Assembly (NCBI GenBank): GCA_003644385.1
Contig: QNCD01000003.1
Location: 1-52,322, forward strand
Length of the DNA: 52,322 nt
Origin: Candidatus Omnitrophota bacterium
Lineage (GTDB): Bacteria; Omnitrophota; Gorgyraeia; Gygaellales; Profunditerraquicolaceae
Direction of reading: 5' to 3'
Shown: positions 26,915 through 48,560 of the stretch, piece by piece
How the letters are laid out: every line of letters starts with the position of its first letter
Position numbering within the stretch: position 1 is the stretch's first letter
Made by a program: the position numbers and the translations under genes
The notes under the pieces: model-generated
Databases searched by the model: none
The model's input: only the letters and a program-made list of their open reading frames with translations
Told to the model about the DNA's origin: nothing

Positions 26915-28297
26915 TTATCTGTAATAAGGCAAAAACAACAATGCCAGCCAGGCAATAGAGGTGGTAACCAAACCTATAATAATACCGATCCCCATCCAGC
27001 GCAGAAAAGTCAATTTAATATTTCTTTCTTTTTCCAAAATTCCTAATGCTACTATATTCGCGGTAGAGCCGATTAAGGTAATATTGCCCCCAAAACAGCC
27101 GCCGAAAAGCAACGCCCACCAGAGAACTTCTAAATAGCCGTTGAGCATCTGGAAGCCGTGTATCACAGGAATAAATGCAGCTACCAAGACAACGTTATCT
27201 AACATGCTTGAGCCAATCGCGCTTAGCCAGAGTATAAAGGAAGTCAGAAAATAAGGATTGTTACCGGTGAAATTGACGATTTTTCTGGCCAGGACATCAG
27301 TTGCTCCCGTATACTTTAATGTTGCTGCCTGGGCAAAAAGAAAAAGGAAAAAAAGCAATGTCCACCATTCCACATCTTTCTCAATAAATTTACGCGCTTT
27401 ATCGTGCTTCCAGATCATAACCAAGGCTGCGCTGACTAATGGAATGATCAACAGGATTGTGTTAGCTTTTAAACCCCAGAACACATCCAGACGATGCGAA
27501 AAAGCTAAGCCCAAAAGGGTTAAGATAAAAATTGAAAGGGCGATTTCTGTCTGTCTGTCAGGAGGAACAGATACCAATTTGATCAGCATTTCATTTGCGC
27601 CGAATTCTTTCATTTTCTGGTCTAATTTTTGTAATGAACGCCTGTACCAAAATAAAACAATAAAAATCATGCTAAAAAGAGAAAGCACGGCTAAGGGGAA
27701 AGCCTTGATAATAAAATCCTCAAAAGTCAAACCGGATTTAGTAGCAATCAGAATACCGATAGGGTTACCTAATACCGTGCCCGCAGAGCCGATATTTGTA
27801 GCTAAAATTGAAATTATGATATAAGGGGTGGGTTCGACTTCAAAATAATCGCAAATTTCTAATACTGCTGCAACTATAAAAATAATTGAAGTGACTTCAT
27901 CAACCGCACAGGCCAACAAAGCCGAAATTAAAGAAATAACCAGTACAAATCTTTTAGCAGTGAGATTTTTAATGCGAATGATCAGGCTGACAATCCAGGC
28001 AAAGAAACCCGCATCCTTGAGCAACCCGATCAGCACCATCATTCCTACCAGAAACAAGATGACTTCTAAAGAGGAGGCTCTGACCAGATTATCCAAATCA
28101 ATTGTACCGGTAGCCAACAAAATAGAAGCGCCTAAAAAAGCAAAGCTTAAGCGCAAATTCCAAAAAAATAAAGTTCCCAGGACAGAGGCGCTAAATATCG
28201 AGATAGATAAAGCCTGTTGAAAATTTAAGCCGATTCGCCGAACTAAAAAAGCTAAGCCTATCGGAATAAAAATAATAAATATGAATTTTTTAATCAT
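26915..28297 (-). CDS. ArsB/NhaD-type ion transporter superfamily permease (second copy)
   Basis: 460 residues with about 12 membrane segments. IT-superfamily marks in both halves: DEVTSIIFIVAAVLEICDYF, NIGSAGTVLGNPIGILIA, then DNVVLVAAFIPVIHGF and CFGGNITLIGSTANIVA. It is a distant paralogue of the permease at 20104. Five bases separate it from the upstream CBS-domain gene, which may gate it by nucleotide binding. Substrate unknown. Confidence 0.9.
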   Translation of the reverse strand: MIKKFIFIIFIPIGLAFLVRRIGLNFQQALSISIFSASVLGTLFFWNLRLSFAFLGASILLATGTIDLDNLVRASSLEVILFLVGMMVLIGLLKDAGFFAWIVSLIIRIKNLTAKRFVLVISLISALLACAVDEVTSIIFIVAAVLEICDYFEVEPTPYIIISILATNIGSAGTVLGNPIGILIATKSGLTFEDFIIKAFPLAVLSLFSMIFIVLFWYRRSLQKLDQKMKEFGANEMLIKLVSVPPDRQTEIALSIFILTLLGLAFSHRLDVFWGLKANTILLIIPLVSAALVMIWKHDKARKFIEKDVEWWTLLFFLFLFAQAATLKYTGATDVLARKIVNFTGNNPYFLTSFILWLSAIGSSMLDNVVLVAAFIPVIHGFQMLNGYLEVLWWALLFGGCFGGNITLIGSTANIVALGILEKERNIKLTFLRWMGIGIIIGLVTTSIAWLALLFLPYYR

Positions 28298-28302
28298 CTA
28301 AA

Positions 28303-28764
28303 CTAACTAGTGGAGGACATTTCTGCTTCTTTGGGTATCGCTTTCAATATGTCGCAGCGGGCCACGATTCCTAATACTTTTTTCTCCTTATCAACTACCA
28401 AGAGTCTACGCACTTTCTGCGTCAGCATCAATCTTGCCGCTTCTGTTAAAGAAGCTTCCTCGGAAGTAGTTATGACTTCCCTGCGCATAAGCTGACTTAC
28501 TTTGACCACCTTTAGCTCAGTGAGTTTGCGCGATATTGCCTTAGGATTATCCTGATAAATAAACCTTCCTACTTTTTCCACGTAACTGGGTAAAATATAA
28601 GAAAGTACGCTTTTCTCGGTAAACATACCGAGAAGTTTTCCGCCTTCATCAATTACCGGTAAACCGCTTATTTTGCTTTTAAATAAAAGGTCCAGGGCCT
28701 CTTGCCCTCTATCGTCGGGCTTTAAGCTGATTACATCCCTTATCATAATCTCTTTTATCTTCAT
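28303..28764 (-). CDS. CBS domain pair protein
   Basis: 153 residues made of two CBS motifs: MIRDVISLKPDDRGQEALDLLFKSKISGLPVIDEGGKLLGMFTE at residues 8-52, and MRREVITTSEEASLTEAARLMLTQKVRRLLVVDKEKKVLGIVARCDIL near 93-141. Bateman modules bind adenosine nucleotides and regulate partners. The partner is most likely the permease gene 5 bases downstream. Confidence 0.92.
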   Translation of the reverse strand: MKIKEIMIRDVISLKPDDRGQEALDLLFKSKISGLPVIDEGGKLLGMFTEKSVLSYILPSYVEKVGRFIYQDNPKAISRKLTELKVVKVSQLMRREVITTSEEASLTEAARLMLTQKVRRLLVVDKEKKVLGIVARCDILKAIPKEAEMSSTS

Positions 28765-41642: not shown

Positions 41643-43208
41643 GTGATGTTAGCCAAAGTACTCAGTTTCGGTTTATGCGGAATAGAGGCGTATCCTATTG
41701 AAATAGAAGTAGATGTTTCAAACGGCCTACCCACATTATCATTAGTGGGACTTGCTGATACCACTATAAAAGAAAGTAAGCAGCGGGTTAAATCAGCAGT
41801 AAAAAATTCAGGTTTTAAATGGCCGGAAGGAAGAATTACCATAAACCTCGCCCCTTCGGACTTGAAAAAAGAGGGAGCCTGTTACGACCTACCCATTGCC
41901 CTGGGTATATTGGCGGGGAGCGGACAACTAAACAGTGAAAACTTAAATATTTATTATATTTTTGGTCAATTATCTCTAGATGGCTCACTGCAACCAATAA
42001 GAGGGATATTACCTATCAGCATGGAAATCGCAAAATCCCTACATATTCACGAAACTCCTTTATCATTAAAAAAGGAAAACCTTATTGTCCCCCTGCAAAA
42101 TGCTAAAGAGGCAGGGTTAGTGCCAGGGGTCAAAGTTTGGCCGCTAAAAACATTAAGGGAAACAGTAGAGTTTCTCAATAATCGAAGTATGGCTATGCCA
42201 TTAAAATTAAATTTTAAAAATTTGTTTGAGCAGAATTCGCGGTATAGAATAGATTTCTCTGAAGTTAAGGCTCAATTTTTAGCCAAAAGGGCAATTGAGG
42301 TTGCCGTGGCTGGAGGCCACAACATCTTGATGATCGGCCCACCCGGAAGCGGCAAGACTATGCTCGCCAAAAGGATCCCTACAATTATGCCTGATTTAAC
42401 ATTAAATGAAGCGTTAGAATTAACTAAAATACATTCTATTGCGGGGACGCTGCCCAAAAATGAAGGCATAATGGCCACCCGGCCTTTTAGAAGCCCGCAC
42501 CATAGTGCATCTGATGTAGCGTTAGTAGGCGACGGGTCAATCCCTCAGCCAGGAGAAATAAGCCTGGCACACCAGGGTGTTCTATTCTTAGATGAATTGC
42601 CGGAATTCCAGCGCAGTTCTTTAGAAGCTTTAAGGCAACCCCTTGAGGAAGGATTAATACGCGTTTGCCGTATCAAAAAATCATTTGTATTTCCTGCCTC
42701 TTTTATGTTAGCAGCAGCTATGAACCCCTGCAAGTGTGGCCATTTTAACGACCTTAAATCTTCCTGCAGGTGCACGCCAAATGAAATTTACAAATATCGC
42801 GCTAAAATATCCGGTCCTTTATTGGATAGAATAGACATACATCTTGAAGTACCTGCTGTGCGTTATCAAGAACTAACATCCAGAGTGCCTACTGAAAGCT
42901 CTGCTCAAATAAAAGAAAGGGTAAATAAGGCGCGTGAGATTCAAAGAAAAAGGTTAAAAAATGAAGGAATTTTATGCAATGCTCAAATGTCTCATAAGCA
43001 GGTACGCAAATTCTGCGAATTAGGCAAAGAGGAAAATGAGCTTTTGAAGATGGCGATGACAGAACTTAATTTTAGCGCCAGGGCATACGACAAAATACTG
43101 AAAACCTCAAGGACTATCGCTGATTTAGGCGATTCTGAAAATATCTCAACAGAGCATTTGTCAGAGGCGATTCAGTACCGCTCTTTAGATAGAGATTTCT
43201 TCCTTTAA
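41643..43208 (+). CDS. comM: ComM/YifB Mg-chelatase-like AAA+ ATPase
   Basis: 521 residues, full length. The N-terminal ChlI-like domain (SFGLCGIEAYPIEIEVDVSNGLPTLSLVGLAD, VKESKQRVKSA pattern) precedes the AAA+ domain with Walker A GPPGSGKTMLAKRI near 230 and Walker B GVLFLDELPEF near 310, the NPCKCGHF cysteine motif and the C-terminal domain ending RTIADLGDSENISTEHLSEAIQYRSLDRDFFL. Known members are branch-migration helicases that extend integration of incoming DNA during transformation. Strong AAGGAGG 4 bases before the ATG. A decayed second copy lies at 48078. Confidence 0.96.
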   Translation: MMLAKVLSFGLCGIEAYPIEIEVDVSNGLPTLSLVGLADTTIKESKQRVKSAVKNSGFKWPEGRITINLAPSDLKKEGACYDLPIALGILAGSGQLNSENLNIYYIFGQLSLDGSLQPIRGILPISMEIAKSLHIHETPLSLKKENLIVPLQNAKEAGLVPGVKVWPLKTLRETVEFLNNRSMAMPLKLNFKNLFEQNSRYRIDFSEVKAQFLAKRAIEVAVAGGHNILMIGPPGSGKTMLAKRIPTIMPDLTLNEALELTKIHSIAGTLPKNEGIMATRPFRSPHHSASDVALVGDGSIPQPGEISLAHQGVLFLDELPEFQRSSLEALRQPLEEGLIRVCRIKKSFVFPASFMLAAAMNPCKCGHFNDLKSSCRCTPNEIYKYRAKISGPLLDRIDIHLEVPAVRYQELTSRVPTESSAQIKERVNKAREIQRKRLKNEGILCNAQMSHKQVRKFCELGKEENELLKMAMTELNFSARAYDKILKTSRTIADLGDSENISTEHLSEAIQYRSLDRDFFL

Positions 43209-44241: not shown

Positions 44242-44574
44242 CTATTCTTTTGATTTAATGACCTTGTTTACTGCAACAATAGCAATGCTTCCGACCCCTT
44301 CCTGTGTAAAATCAATCTTTTCCTCTGTAAGTAATTTATTAAATTGCGCCAAGAAATCCTTTTGGTCAATTAAGGCTAATATGGTCTTACAGGCAGCTCT
44401 TTTCTCTCCAATCATCTGCCGTAATCCGGCAAATATAGGCACTTCATGCGCTAAATAGTCTCCGAGTCTCTCGCCATCTTGGATAATTGCATCGGAAATT
44501 TCTAATTCTGCTAAAATAGATAATATCGGCTCAAGGTATTCTTCTTTATTAAGCACAATCACCATAAGTTCCAT
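44242..44574 (-). CDS. PII-like signalling protein
   Basis: 110 residues with the ferredoxin-like beta-alpha-beta plan of the PII superfamily: strand MELMVIVLN, helix EEYLEPILSILAEL, strand DAIIQDGERLGDYL, then helix KTILALIDQKDFLAQFNKLLTEEKID and strand VGSIAIVAVNKV. Residues 1-40 match the opening of the PII-like domain in the protein at 45805 closely (LMVI...YL..I.....E..I.DA/VTI....G.G..L). Such proteins (SbtB type) bind nucleotides and gate a transporter encoded next to them; here the antiporter is 17 bases upstream. Confidence 0.7.
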   Translation of the reverse strand: MELMVIVLNKEEYLEPILSILAELEISDAIIQDGERLGDYLAHEVPIFAGLRQMIGEKRAACKTILALIDQKDFLAQFNKLLTEEKIDFTQEGVGSIAIVAVNKVIKSKE

Positions 44575-44591
44575 TGTATCCCTCCAATATT

Positions 44592-45788
44592 TTATTTGGC
44601 TTTACCAATTTCTCCGGCCTTTGAGATAGCAAATTTCGTCGCTATAGGCCCTATTATTTCAAAAATTATTGTAGTTGCCGCAATAGTATTTATTACAGCT
44701 ACAGCTAAATCTTTCCCCGTAGCCCCGAGAGAACCAAATTCTCTTGTTGCCAGTATAGCAAATCCTATTGCAACACCGGCCTGCGAAAGAATGCCGAGCC
44801 CTAAATATTTTCTAATAACAGGGGCGGATTTGGATATAGTGGCTCCGAAATAGGCACCGCCCATAAGCCCTAATATCCTGCATACGATATAGATTAGACC
44901 CAATAGCCCAATTGCTGGAAGAAGACCAATCTGTAAATGCGCACCGGCTATAACAAAGAATACAATATAAATGGGAAGGGTGATTAACTGTGTCGCCTGA
45001 TATGTTCTTCGATTCGCCAGTAAGAATGTGTTAGCGAATATCATCCCTAAGCTCAAATTTGCCAAAATTAACGAGAAATTAAAACATTTAGACAGACCCG
45101 TGCAAAGTATTATGCAACCCAAGGCTATGACTAATATTTCGCTTTTATTATAAACCTTGCGTATAGAATATCCAAGTAAAAGTCCCATAAGTCCACCCAA
45201 AAGAATAGCTCCACCTATTTCAATAACTGGTTTCCCAATAGTATTAATTAGAGACATATTATCGCCTGTTATAAAAACTTTCGCTAAACCTGATGCAAAT
45301 GCATAAATTATAATAGCTAACCCGTCATCGAGTCCGACAACAGCATAAAGTGAATTCGTTAGAGGACCTTTTGCCTTATATTCTTGTAAAACCACGGCCG
45401 TTCCCGCTGGCGCTGATGCAGGCGCCATAGCTCCGAAAATAAGCGCTAAATATATCTTATGGGTTAATAGGTAAACACCCAGCGCGACAAGCAGAAATGC
45501 TCCAAAAGATTCTGAAAATATAATGGTAATTATACCTTTTCCCATTTTCCGGAGCGTGCTAATACGCATTTCACAACCAATGACAAAAGCAACCAATCCC
45601 AAAGCCAAATCATTAAAGACTCCCATTTTCCCCAAGATGCCGATATTTAGAATATTGGTAAAGGAAGGCCCCAGTAGAAGGCCTGCAATAAGATATCCGA
45701 CAACAGACGGCAACCTAAATTTGTTGCTAAATTTGCCTCCGAGGAATCCTGCGATGATAGAAGTGCCTACAAATACCAATATATCCAT
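44592..45788 (-). CDS. CPA2-type Na+ or K+/H+ antiporter (Kef/NapA family)
   Basis: 398-residue inner-membrane protein with about 12 membrane segments: FLGGKFSNKFRLPSVVGYLIAGLLLGPS start, GVFNDLALGLVAFVIGCEMR, the ion-binding region APASAPAGTAVVLQEYKAKGPLTNSLYAVVGLDDGLAIIIYAFA with the Asp-Asp pair, and RTYQATQLITLPIYIVFFVIAGAHL in the second half. No TrkA-N or RCK domain follows, unlike Kef channels; regulation may instead come from the flanking PII-like and EIIA domains. Ion selectivity unknown. Confidence 0.92.
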   Translation of the reverse strand: MDILVFVGTSIIAGFLGGKFSNKFRLPSVVGYLIAGLLLGPSFTNILNIGILGKMGVFNDLALGLVAFVIGCEMRISTLRKMGKGIITIIFSESFGAFLLVALGVYLLTHKIYLALIFGAMAPASAPAGTAVVLQEYKAKGPLTNSLYAVVGLDDGLAIIIYAFASGLAKVFITGDNMSLINTIGKPVIEIGGAILLGGLMGLLLGYSIRKVYNKSEILVIALGCIILCTGLSKCFNFSLILANLSLGMIFANTFLLANRRTYQATQLITLPIYIVFFVIAGAHLQIGLLPAIGLLGLIYIVCRILGLMGGAYFGATISKSAPVIRKYLGLGILSQAGVAIGFAILATREFGSLGATGKDLAVAVINTIAATTIIFEIIGPIATKFAISKAGEIGKAK

Positions 45789-45804
45789 AATCTTCTAACT
45801 CTTC

Positions 45805-46635
45805 CTATGATTCAACTTTTCTAAATTCATCCAGGATTTCTTTGGGATTCGAAGCTGCCAGAAGTCTTTTTCTGAAATCCTCTTTTTGCAAAAGTCTGCT
45901 TAAGTGAGCAAGAAGCTTCAGATACGCACTTAATTTTTTCTTTGCAGGTGTGCCGATTAAAAATACAAGCTTAACCGGTCTTTTATCTATAGCATCAAAG
46001 TCAAATCCTTCTTTAGACCTCCCAAAAGCGATAACAACGTCTTCCACGGTATCGGTACGGGCATGTGGGACAGCGACTTCATATCCAATACCTGTTGAAA
46101 CCATCTTCTCTCGAGTGAATACCGCAGAAACAAATCCTTCAAAATCAACGATATCTTTTTCTTTTTTAAGAATCTCTGCCAGTTCTTTAATTACATCTTC
46201 TTTTGTCCGTCCTTTTAAATCAAGCAAAATGTTTTCTTCTTTGAGATATTCGCAAAGTTTCATTTTGACATTCTCCTCTCTTTTCTGTGTGTAAAATGAA
46301 CCCTTCTCCAAATGTTTTACTTTTACATAAGGTAGTGTGCAAACAAAAGCCTTTTCGTTAAAATTCCTCCATCTTGAGGAAGATGTGTCATCTTCAAGAT
46401 GATTCATAATCCGTTCTATTTTTTTCTCATCGTCTACAAGGGCTATAAGGGCCTTGTCGTATTCCTTTGAAAGACCTCCTTTCCGAAATCCAAGGGTGCC
46501 CGCCGAATCACCCTCTAATAGAGAGCCGATTCCATTCCGCCTAATAATAGTTACGTCTGGAATTTTTTCCTTCTGTATAAGTGGCATAATCGATTGAAGA
46601 TAATTCTCATTTTTATGCATTATAACCAATAACAT
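45805..46635 (-). CDS. PII-like domain fused to PTS EIIA domain
   Basis: 276 residues from ATG 46635, chosen for GGGAGG 6 bases upstream. Residues 1-124 are a PII-like domain (MLLVIMHKNENYLQSIMPLIQ...IPDVTIIRRNGIGSLL) paralogous to the 110-residue protein at 44242. Residues 125-276 are a fructose-type EIIA domain with the phospho-histidine motif VAVPHART and helix SAYLKLLAHLSRLLQKEDFRKRLL. The EIIA part begins with its own ATG (46261-46263) and a GAGGAG 10 bases upstream, so it may also be produced separately. Predicted role: links a phosphorelay and a metabolite signal to the antiporter 16 bases downstream. Confidence 0.85.
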   Translation of the reverse strand: MLLVIMHKNENYLQSIMPLIQKEKIPDVTIIRRNGIGSLLEGDSAGTLGFRKGGLSKEYDKALIALVDDEKKIERIMNHLEDDTSSSRWRNFNEKAFVCTLPYVKVKHLEKGSFYTQKREENVKMKLCEYLKEENILLDLKGRTKEDVIKELAEILKKEKDIVDFEGFVSAVFTREKMVSTGIGYEVAVPHARTDTVEDVVIAFGRSKEGFDFDAIDKRPVKLVFLIGTPAKKKLSAYLKLLAHLSRLLQKEDFRKRLLAASNPKEILDEFRKVES

Positions 46636-46690
46636 GGCATCCTCCCGCGTTAAAAATGACTTTCCGTCAAATTTATAGTTCTCTACAGAA

Positions 46691-47002
46691 TCAAAGGATG
46701 GGAGGAGAGTGATTAAATAAGTCGGAATAAAAGAATAAGTAAGTACTAGAATGGTTGTGTCCAAATAAAGTAACGAAAGAATTGAGGGGATGTATTGAAT
46801 GGGTTAAAATAGGAACATCTGTGTCTGGAAAAAAGTCAACAGGATGATAATCCTTTTTGTTAGATTTGATTTCTTTGATTTCGCAAATCTCTTCTCTGCT
46901 TTCGGCCTCTTGACATATAGGAGTAACCATATGCAAACTGAATTCCGGAAGCATGACGATTAATAATACAAAATTTACTAACAAAGTCTTGTGTTTGTTC
47001 AT
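46691..47002 (-). CDS. Small secreted protein, unknown
   Basis: 103 residues with a hydrophobic N-terminus LLVNFVLLIVMLPEFSL as a probable signal peptide or anchor, then a polar segment with Glu-rich stretch and a His- and Pro-rich C-terminus (THSIHPLNSFVTLFGHNHSSTYLFFYSDLFNHS). The histidines might bind metal. It lies between the HTH-EIIA and PII-EIIA genes of the operon. I recognise no family and the ribosome-binding site is weak. Confidence 0.5.
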   Translation of the reverse strand: MNKHKTLLVNFVLLIVMLPEFSLHMVTPICQEAESREEICEIKEIKSNKKDYHPVDFFPDTDVPILTHSIHPLNSFVTLFGHNHSSTYLFFYSDLFNHSPPIL

Positions 47003-47020
47003 CGTAATCTTCTGGGTTAT

Positions 47021-47728
47021 CTAAATCTGATTGCCGGCATACATATGTTCTCTGTCGAATAGCAATAATATTTGGGTTATTTCGTCCTTAGTTTCTGCCT
47101 GTAATAATTTTTTTATAACGCCGGGCATGTGAAAAAATTTAGCAATTTTTGCCAATAATCTAATATGAGTATATTCATTAGAAGTGCATGGCATAAAGAA
47201 AATATGAACGGGCTTCTTATCAGCTGAATCGCAATCAATCCCATTTTTAGAAAGCAAAATAACTATCTTAGATTCTACAAACAAATCTGGAGAAGGATGC
47301 CGAGGATGAGGAATAGCTATACCATTACCTATAGCTGTACTCAAAAATTTCTCTCTTTTTTTAAGTTCACTAAGAAGTTTCTCTTGCGAAGGAGTCAAGC
47401 CTTCTGTATGGGCAATTTTCGCTAATTTCTCAAGAACCGCGTCTATATCTTTTGCTTTTGAATCTAACTCAATCAGATTATGATTTGTCATTCTCGATAA
47501 GGGAATGATATCAACCTCGGTTTTGATTACCGAATCCAATTCCTCATCAGGTGCTTCTGATAGATCCTTTAATAAAAAATTATCGATGGCTTTCAAATGA
47601 AATCGCCATTGGTTGCCAATTTTTACTCCAGGCAGATGGCCGCTCTGAGCCATCTTTATTATGGTTTTTTCATTCAACTTCAGATATTCCGCCAACTCCT
47701 GCGTGGTAAAAACCTTATTTTGCTCCAT
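47021..47728 (-). CDS. Helix-turn-helix regulator with EIIA domain
   Basis: 235 residues. Residues 5-52 are an excisionase/MerR-type DNA-binding domain (FTTQELAEYLKLNEKTIIKMAQSGHLPGVKIGNQWRF); residues from about 85 form an EIIA domain with the histidine motif IGNGIAIPHPRH and IFFMPCTSNEYTHIRLLAKIAKFF. It heads the antiporter operon behind a strong promoter and probably regulates the operon through phosphorylation of the EIIA histidine. PTS proteins EI and HPr are not in the window. Confidence 0.9.
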   Translation of the reverse strand: MEQNKVFTTQELAEYLKLNEKTIIKMAQSGHLPGVKIGNQWRFHLKAIDNFLLKDLSEAPDEELDSVIKTEVDIIPLSRMTNHNLIELDSKAKDIDAVLEKLAKIAHTEGLTPSQEKLLSELKKREKFLSTAIGNGIAIPHPRHPSPDLFVESKIVILLSKNGIDCDSADKKPVHIFFMPCTSNEYTHIRLLAKIAKFFHMPGVIKKLLQAETKDEITQILLLFDREHMYAGNQI

Positions 47729-47775
47729 ATCCGTATATTAACCTATTTTAACTTAAACTGACTTACTTTAACCCA

Positions 47776-47804
47776 AGTATGCCATATCTCTCATTTTCTG
47801 TCAA
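47776..47804 (-). promoter_or_regulatory. Promoter of the EIIA/antiporter operon
   Basis: Minus-strand TTGACA (47799-47804), 17-bp spacer, CATACT (47776-47781). Between it and the ATG the leader contains three TTAA-rich direct repeats (GGTTAAAGTAAG, GTTTAAGTTAAA and GGTTAATATA), possible sites for the HTH-EIIA protein. Confidence 0.7.
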
Positions 47805-47816
47805 GAGTAAAAACGA

Positions 47817-48030
47817 TTATCCCTCAATAAAATTAAACGCACGAGAAAAATGCCTTTTGGCTGGTTGCAAGCCTCTTAATTCACAATTAATAACCGTCCT
47901 CAGGGGTCACGCCTATGATCTCTGCAATCTCTTTTATATACAGGCCCTTATCCATACGGGCTTTTCTGAGCTTCTCGCCTAGATTTTGGGAGTTCTTAGG
48001 GTAATCAGGGTTGAATTCGTTCAAATTCAG
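47817..48030 (-). pseudogene. XRE-family HTH gene remnant
   Basis: The minus strand reads EFNPDYPKNSQNLGEKLRKARMDKGLYIKEIAEIIGVTPED in one frame and continues TVINCELRGLQPAKRHFSRAFNFIEG in the next, so an XRE-type HTH gene was frameshifted near 47905. It lacks a start codon. It resembles the degraded XRE gene at 43185 (FNPRYP...GERIRKRRMD) and lies just before the second comM fragment. Confidence 0.75.
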
Positions 48031-48054
48031 GCTTAATTCAAGCTTAATTCAAGC
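48031..48054. repeat. Short tandem repeat, 11-bp unit
   Basis: GCTTAATTCAA occurs twice in a row (48031-48041, 48042-48052), followed by a partial third copy GC. It separates the XRE remnant from the comM fragment. Confidence 0.7.
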
Positions 48055-48077
48055 TCATAAACAAAAGGAGTGTTGCT

Positions 48078-48560
48078 ATTATGTGCATCAGGGTTGCCCG
48101 TGCGGTTATTATACCGATTCCAGGAAAGCCTGTAAATGCAGCCCGGGTAAAATCCAAAATTATATGAATAAAATATCCGGCCCCCTTTTAGACAGGATAG
48201 ATATCCATATAGAACTACCTGCCTTAAAATATAAAGAGTTAAGCCAGAGAGAAGAAAATGAATCATCCGACATAATTAAAGCCCGGGTGGAAAAAGCACG
48301 AGTTATCCAAAGGCAGAGGTTAAATCCGAAGGTATCCCTTACAATGCCCAGATGAATACTAAATTAATAAAAAACATTGTCTCTTGGAAAATGAGACCCA
48401 AAGACTGCTAGGGATGGCAATGACAGAATTAGGATTTTCGGCAAGGGCTTATAACAAAATTTTAAAGGTTTCCCGCACCATTGCTGACTTGGCAGGTAAT
48501 AATAGCATCTATCCGCAACACATCTCTGAAGTAATACAATATAGGAGTTTGGATAAATAA
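48078..48560 (+). pseudogene. C-terminal fragment of a second comM gene
   Basis: The plus strand encodes NPCPCGYYTD-like sequence after a broken start, then CKCSPGKIQNYMNKISGPLLDRIDIHIELPALKYKEL, shifts frame near 48325 (SEGIPYNAQMNTKL) and again near 48375 (KHCLLENETQRLLGMAMTELGFSARAYNKILKVSRTIADLAGN), ending SEVIQYRSLDK at 48560. It aligns with the last third of the intact ComM at 41643 but differs at many residues, so it is an old paralogue. The N-terminal two thirds are missing. It ends 5 bases from the convergent TPR gene. Confidence 0.88.

Follow-up and report, generated by a model that had tools for sequence, protein, structure and literature searches.

A PII-like and EIIA gene set beside a CPA2 antiporter in a Candidatus Omnitrophota genome, with counterparts in Omnitrophota and Spirochaetota

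The DNA analysed here (the window) is a stretch of 52,322 nucleotides, positions 1 to 52,322 of contig QNCD01000003.1 in assembly GCA_003644385.1 of a Candidatus Omnitrophota bacterium. The system under study is an operon of five minus-strand genes, running from 47728 to 44242 with successive gaps of 18, 55, 16 and 17 nt, which combines PII-like proteins and EIIA domains of the phosphotransferase system (PTS) with a cation/proton antiporter of the CPA2 family. An initial annotation had described five closely spaced same-strand genes behind one strong promoter, and both descriptions hold: there is one good promoter, at 47804-47776, and the only correction concerns the start of the fusion gene. 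The features are as follows, in the direction of transcription.

47776..47804 (-), promoter TTGACA-17-CATACT, with TG ahead of the -10 hexamer
47733..47772 (-), four 10-bp direct repeats GTTAAAGTAA GTCAGTTTAA GTTAAAATAG GTTAATATAC, putative operator of the HTH–EIIA protein
47021..47728 (-), HTH–EIIA gene: a helix-turn-helix (HTH) domain, HTH_17 (excisionase/BldC-type), fused to PTS EIIA_2 with a PH motif
46691..47002 (-), small signal-peptide open reading frame (ORF) ending in LFNHSPPIL, with counterparts in loci L056 and L132 at the equivalent operon position
46700..46706 (-), TCCTCCC in the last codons of this candidate leader, complementary to the Shine-Dalgarno (SD) sequence of the next gene
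46640..46646 (-), GGGAGGA, SD of the PII–EIIA gene, predicted to be sequestered by 46700-46706 (z-score only -0.8)
45805..46635 (-), PII-like–EIIA fusion gene, the PII-like part at 46635-46264 and EIIA_2 from 46263
44592..45788 (-), CPA2 cation/proton antiporter of 398 aa (PF00999), with a pair of aspartates (DD) in VVGLDDGLAI and without RCK/TrkA-N
44242..44574 (-), stand-alone PII-like protein with the T-loop signature EVPIFAGLR

The Pfam families HTH_17 and PTS_EIIA_2 in the first gene, PTS_EIIA_2 in the fusion and Na_H_Exchanger in the antiporter were matched at E = 1e-13 to 1e-37, far above cut-offs. The fusion gene very probably starts at ATG 46635, chosen because the SD GGGAGGA (46646-46640) precedes it and because both the L022 start and the second PII gene of L056 align with it; the alternative start TTG 46764 was rejected. 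Within the gene, an in-frame GAGGAG and ATG at the EIIA boundary could allow EIIA to be made alone. L022 has the same fusion, and in L056 and L132 each half is a gene of its own.

Neither the stand-alone PII-like protein nor the PII-like domain of the fusion matched a Pfam family, and P-II (PF00543) matches six of ten relatives (best 1e-6); the L091 protein scores 22.2 bits, below the cut-off of 25. An AlphaFold model of the stand-alone protein has a predicted local distance difference test (pLDDT) score of 85, and the top Foldseek matches are GlnK, GlnZ, TT1020 and PotN (probability 1.00, TM-score about 0.6). The fusion domain is more divergent: its model has a pLDDT of 72 with an uncertain T-loop, and it matched SbtB and GlnK with probability 1.00 and a TM-score of about 0.42 for this lower-confidence model; the best match in the PDB is SbtB, and the solved SbtA–SbtB complex is among the fold matches. 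The PII-like assignment, for which structure prediction had been put forward as the check, is thus borne out by models that match PII and SbtB structures: both domains are predicted to have the PII ferredoxin-like fold, and probably form trimers as other PII proteins do.

Two positions of classical PII proteins are replaced in this family. The T-loop signature is (E)VPIFAGLR, and its Phe occupies the Tyr51 position in 53 of 53 sequences, in a register that rests on alignment to 2eg1; at the lysine of the GDGK loop (Lys90, in the B-loop) most sequences have Ile, Met, Val or Ser. Since both are replaced, uridylylation and canonical ATP contacts appear unlikely. Identification of the stand-alone protein as a canonical GlnB was rejected, both on these grounds and for want of a Pfam match. 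The assembly as a whole, which is 90.7% complete, has no PF00543 match at E <= 0.001, and thus no canonical GlnB was found.

Both EIIA domains of the window match PF00359 (E = 1.6e-31 and 5e-37) and each has a PH motif; the phospho-acceptor histidine is kept in all 57 of the EIIA domains inspected, nine of which were read by eye. Contig C21 of the same assembly carries the EI and HPr genes together, and the assembly has no match to EIIC (PF02378) or EIIB (PF02302), other EIIC families not having been searched. From the presence of EI and HPr and the lack of PF02378 and PF02302, the PTS of this genome looks regulatory, similar to the nitrogen PTS (PTS-Ntr). The initial annotation had tied ion or pH homeostasis to phosphoenolpyruvate or nitrogen state; EI and HPr fit the first of these, a phosphoenolpyruvate-linked regulatory relay, whereas nitrogen state is not supported as such, given the lack of a canonical GlnB and the replaced Tyr51 and Lys90 positions. 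A third EIIA of the genome lies at the C-terminus of an amino-acid permease (L019:7617-9461, contig C1).

The antiporter matches Na_H_Exchanger with E = 3.9e-26, and its closest solved structure is NapA of Thermus. It consists of the membrane domain only, with no RCK-type tail. The aspartate D155 of transmembrane helix 5, which is within the DD pair, is invariant; the pair is compatible with the electrogenic CPA2 clades (PMC6181914), yet is not sufficient proof of membership in them.

A profile search for the PII-like protein gave matches in 16 of 384 sampled Omnitrophota genomes and in 41 of 345 genomes of Spirochaetota, the phylum to which the spirochaete loci belong; a weak PII match in G297 (E = 1.5e-5, 42 aa) was left out of the counts. 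The neighbourhoods of 55 loci were read, 18 from Omnitrophota (window included) and 37 from spirochaetes. An antiporter adjoins the PII-like gene in 51 of them, 38 with CPA2 and 13 with Mrp (Mnh); judged by our estimate of a few antiporter genes per roughly two thousand, rather than by a computed baseline, this is far above chance. CPA2 is the neighbour in 18 of 18 Omnitrophota loci and in 20 of the spirochaete loci; in 13 further spirochaete loci the PII-like gene stands at the head of an Mrp operon, with the order PII–EIIA–MnhE–MrpF–MnhG (Pfam confirmed the subunits in L091 and L093), and four have no adjacent antiporter. An EIIA gene is adjacent in 36 of the 37 spirochaete loci and 10 of the 18 Omnitrophota loci. 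The orders EIIA-CPA2-PII, EIIA-PII-CPA2-CPA2, PII-CPA2-CPA2 and PII-EIIA-Mrp are all observed, and this variation argues for function rather than inertia. The initial annotation had proposed a search of relatives for these neighbours, and homologues of the PII-like and EIIA genes do prove to be conserved beside antiporters in both phyla.

Fusions of EIIA with the PII-like domain are found in either order (PII–EIIA in the window and in L022, EIIA–PII at 12 spirochaete loci), which suggests that the two probably work as one unit. The spirochaete locus L121 has HTH–EIIA, an EIIA–PII fusion and CPA2 as in the window, without a stand-alone PII gene. Two members of the window's own family encode CPA2 and EIIA in single proteins (L137:1483-3213 and L140:220-1941; PF00999 plus PF00359), an arrangement in which EIIA would act in cis on a CPA2-type antiporter. 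A regulatory module shared among antiporters is the best explanation of this conservation. Several observations weigh against it, or restrict it. PII and CPA2 are found without a nearby EIIA in L020, L021, L025, L028, L029, L036 and L106, so that EIIA is not obligatory; EIIA and PII are found without an adjacent antiporter in L103, L104, L119 and L124; L132 carries a second PII domain and no stand-alone PII; and nucleotide sensing by the PII-like proteins cannot be assumed, to judge from the residues at the classical Lys90 and Tyr51 positions.

Other arrangements were noted in these and related neighbourhoods. In L143:1495-3634 (G225, of the window's family) an HTH–EIIA gene lies directly upstream of an Mrp/complex I-type subunit (Proton_antipo_M), with no PII-like gene in view. 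A SulP transporter with STAS is encoded upstream of PII-EIIA-Mrp in two spirochaete loci (L041:5134-6921 and L098:4117-5883), which hints at a connection with the sodium-driven uptake of anions, perhaps of bicarbonate. At L023:10453-11777, directly upstream of an intact operon, are broken pieces of Na_H_Exchanger and EIIA that resemble a decayed CPA2–EIIA fusion gene, and the EIIA-PII pairs at L104:6360-7222 and L124:5550-6410, with no adjacent antiporter, lie near ribosomal S6/ssb-like genes.

The PII-like gene is missing from all other genomes sampled in the family to which the window belongs, and the best non-self match to the HTH–EIIA protein in 79 family genomes has 29% identity, mainly over the EIIA domain. 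Vertical inheritance of the operon within the family is unlikely on both counts, and horizontal gain appears the likelier origin.

The repeat array begins 3 nt downstream of the CATACT of the promoter; a TTGACA-like box precedes the HTH–EIIA gene in most relatives as well, as read by eye. Period-10 triplets are present before the HTH–EIIA gene in seven of the seven loci tested, and 0 to 5 of 1000 dinucleotide shuffles per locus did as well. Units of GTTA type are common to the six Omnitrophota loci, and the spirochaete L121 has other letters with the same period. BldC, a relative of this HTH domain, binds head to tail on direct repeats of 9 bp (PMC5859096). The HTH–EIIA protein shares with BldC-family MerR-like regulators the HTH_17/excisionase-type domain and a predicted binding to tandem direct repeats of about one helical turn; it differs in that the units are 10 bp rather than 9 bp and of another sequence, and in having EIIA as the likely effector module. 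By this analogy we infer that HTH–EIIA autoregulates the operon through the repeats, and repression is the likeliest mode because the repeats lie over the start region.

The small ORF between HTH–EIIA and the fusion gene had been described as a His-rich secreted protein. The window copy is indeed His-rich (8 of 103 residues), but its relatives are not, and a leader peptide is a better reading of it than a functional partner. By eye, its N-terminus looks like a signal peptide. There is no Pfam or NCBIfam match, and no sequence homology to SecM, CutF or CruR leaders was detected. Conservation is confined to the C-terminus, which is LFNHSPPIL in the window, LFNHSPPKILT in L056 and LFNHSPPKTIR in L132; the last two belong to one genus, and their small ORFs are alike throughout. 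A pattern search for LFNHSPP in the 384 genomes gave five matches (the reversed control gave three), namely these three loci and two, in G172 and G145, rejected as chance since their frames contain no fitting ORF.

Whether this ORF is a true translation-arrest leader is close to evenly balanced, and we place that reading slightly on the doubtful side. Its anatomy resembles that of the nascent exported leaders SecM, CutF and CruR: an apparent signal peptide, a conserved Pro-Pro motif near the stop, a short gap and a complement of the downstream SD in its last codons. It is unlike them in its NHSPP motif and in having a PII–EIIA regulator gene downstream. There is about an even chance that it is instead a non-regulatory secreted protein, or a leader that serves plain translational coupling. 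The ORF is found in only three loci, and the pairing of the end of the leader with the SD, seen in both of the loci folded (TCCTCCC/GGGAGGA in the window and TCACCTC/GAGGTGA in L056), gives hairpin energies only mildly better than shuffles (z of -0.8 and -1.2). The Pro pair CCT-CCN is moreover intrinsically anti-SD-like, so that complementarity through CCTCC is almost automatic; for these reasons we do not count the SD hairpin as strong evidence. Such a non-arrest role accounts less well for the identity of LFNHSPP across three proteins that are otherwise dissimilar (two are of one genus), where every codon difference within the motif is synonymous, or for its location next to the stop, after a signal peptide and at a constant operon position. 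HSPP also resembles the HAPP/RAPP arrest class (PMC10987492), and the 55-nt gap fits leaders of the type of CutF, a sensor of extracytoplasmic copper, in which the gaps are mostly under 100 nt (PMC9973294).

Taking the locus as a whole, we consider it probable that this is an autoregulated operon for the CPA2 antiporter, the activity of which is set by the PII-like/EIIA pair. Phosphorylation of the EIIA histidine, linked to HPr, would provide a readout of phosphoenolpyruvate supply. The PII-like proteins, whatever their ligand, would sit on the cytoplasmic face of the tail-less antiporter as a removable lid in place of an RCK-type domain, and would gate it through their hydrophobic T-loop; EIIA would tune this gate by its phosphorylation state. 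In E. coli, PtsN in its unphosphorylated form inhibits the K+/H+ antiporter YcgO by binding to its RCK-type tail (PMC11808508), and PtsN also controls TrkA and KdpD (PMC13104625); by the same pattern unphosphorylated EIIA would most likely be the inhibitory form here. HTH–EIIA, bound to the 10-bp repeats just past the -10 box, would adjust transcription to the EIIA phosphorylation state, and translation of PII–EIIA may additionally depend on the nascent exported leader peptide. Only tentatively do we propose the fuller picture of a hitherto undescribed regulatory complex, in which PII-like proteins and EIIA would jointly gate both CPA2 and Mrp antiporters and to which the window would add an HTH–EIIA repressor on the repeats and an exported leader whose arrest at NHSPP would open the PII–EIIA ribosome-binding site.

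An unlikely alternative is that the PTS is linked to the antiporter through expression only: HTH–EIIA would set transcription by PTS state, the second EIIA would feed it phosphate or act elsewhere, and the PII-like proteins alone would gate the antiporter in the manner of SbtB. The operator-like repeats right at the promoter and the several loci with PII and CPA2 but no EIIA are as this would predict. The EIIA–PII fusions in both orders and the CPA2–EIIA fusions, however, place EIIA at the protein level, and in most spirochaete loci EIIA and PII occur with no HTH–EIIA gene. It is more improbable still that the PII-like and EIIA proteins act on metabolic enzymes in the balance of carbon and nitrogen, with the antiporter as their effector or as a passenger, providing a suitable K+ level or pH. 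Metabolism is the classical target of PII and PTS proteins, and the four EIIA–PII loci that lack an adjacent antiporter would fit; yet the pair follows two unrelated antiporter families, CPA2 and Mrp, in differing gene orders and in two phyla, and inspection of the neighbourhoods revealed no metabolic gene family recurring beside it. Chance clustering or an assembly artefact might be suspected, since the genome is a fragmented metagenome-assembled one and the other sampled family members have no PII-like gene, but is refuted by recurrence of the gene set in many independent assemblies of two phyla and can be set aside with near certainty.

Control of cation transport by EIIA, control of transporters by PII-like proteins, and EIIA–transporter fusions are already known separately; a joint PII–EIIA module that spans CPA2 and Mrp antiporters and has fusions in both orders was not found in the open-access papers searched. 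The system resembles PTS-Ntr (E. coli PtsN acting on YcgO, TrkA and KdpD; PMC11808508, abstract) in that the transport of monovalent cations there is, and here would be, under the control of an EIIA from this Pfam family that is supplied by EI and HPr-type carriers. It differs in that YcgO is a CPA1 protein with a cytoplasmic RCK/CorC tail to which EIIA binds, with no PII partner named in that abstract, whereas the antiporters here are tail-less CPA2 or Mrp, EIIA has a PII-like partner to which it is fused, and a second EIIA is carried on a DNA-binding domain. With SbtB–SbtA (a bicarbonate transporter) and GlnK–AmtB it shares a small PII-fold protein encoded beside a transporter, which it would likewise control. 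Those systems involve other transporter families and no PTS partner, and the PIFAGLR T-loop signature is found here; unlike SbtB, the stand-alone protein ends in NKVIKSKE, without a C-terminal R-loop Cys pair. The attachment of EIIA to transporters is seen in the CPA2–EIIA proteins of the same family (L137, L140) and the amino-acid permease–EIIA protein of the same genome (L019), whereas the EIIA of the window is joined to a PII-like domain and not to the transporter.

PII and PTS are among the main metabolic signalling systems of bacteria and are usually studied apart. Their fusions, in both orders and beside two unrelated antiporter families, suggest a direct route from carbon and energy state to cytoplasmic ion and pH balance, and offer a partner-based clue to the regulation of Mrp and of tail-less CPA2 antiporters. 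Through the repeats and the candidate arrest leader, the proposed control can be tested directly by footprinting and toeprinting.

Two further features of the window were noted. A fragment of a Mg-chelatase/ComM-like gene at 48011-48355 (+) lies upstream of the operon, and an intact, clearly different copy lies on its opposite side, at 41643-43208; the fragment is possibly the scar of an insertion. At 26915-28764 a protein with two CBS domains is encoded directly upstream of a CitMHS/ArsB-type permease, which is possibly another transporter regulated by a small protein.

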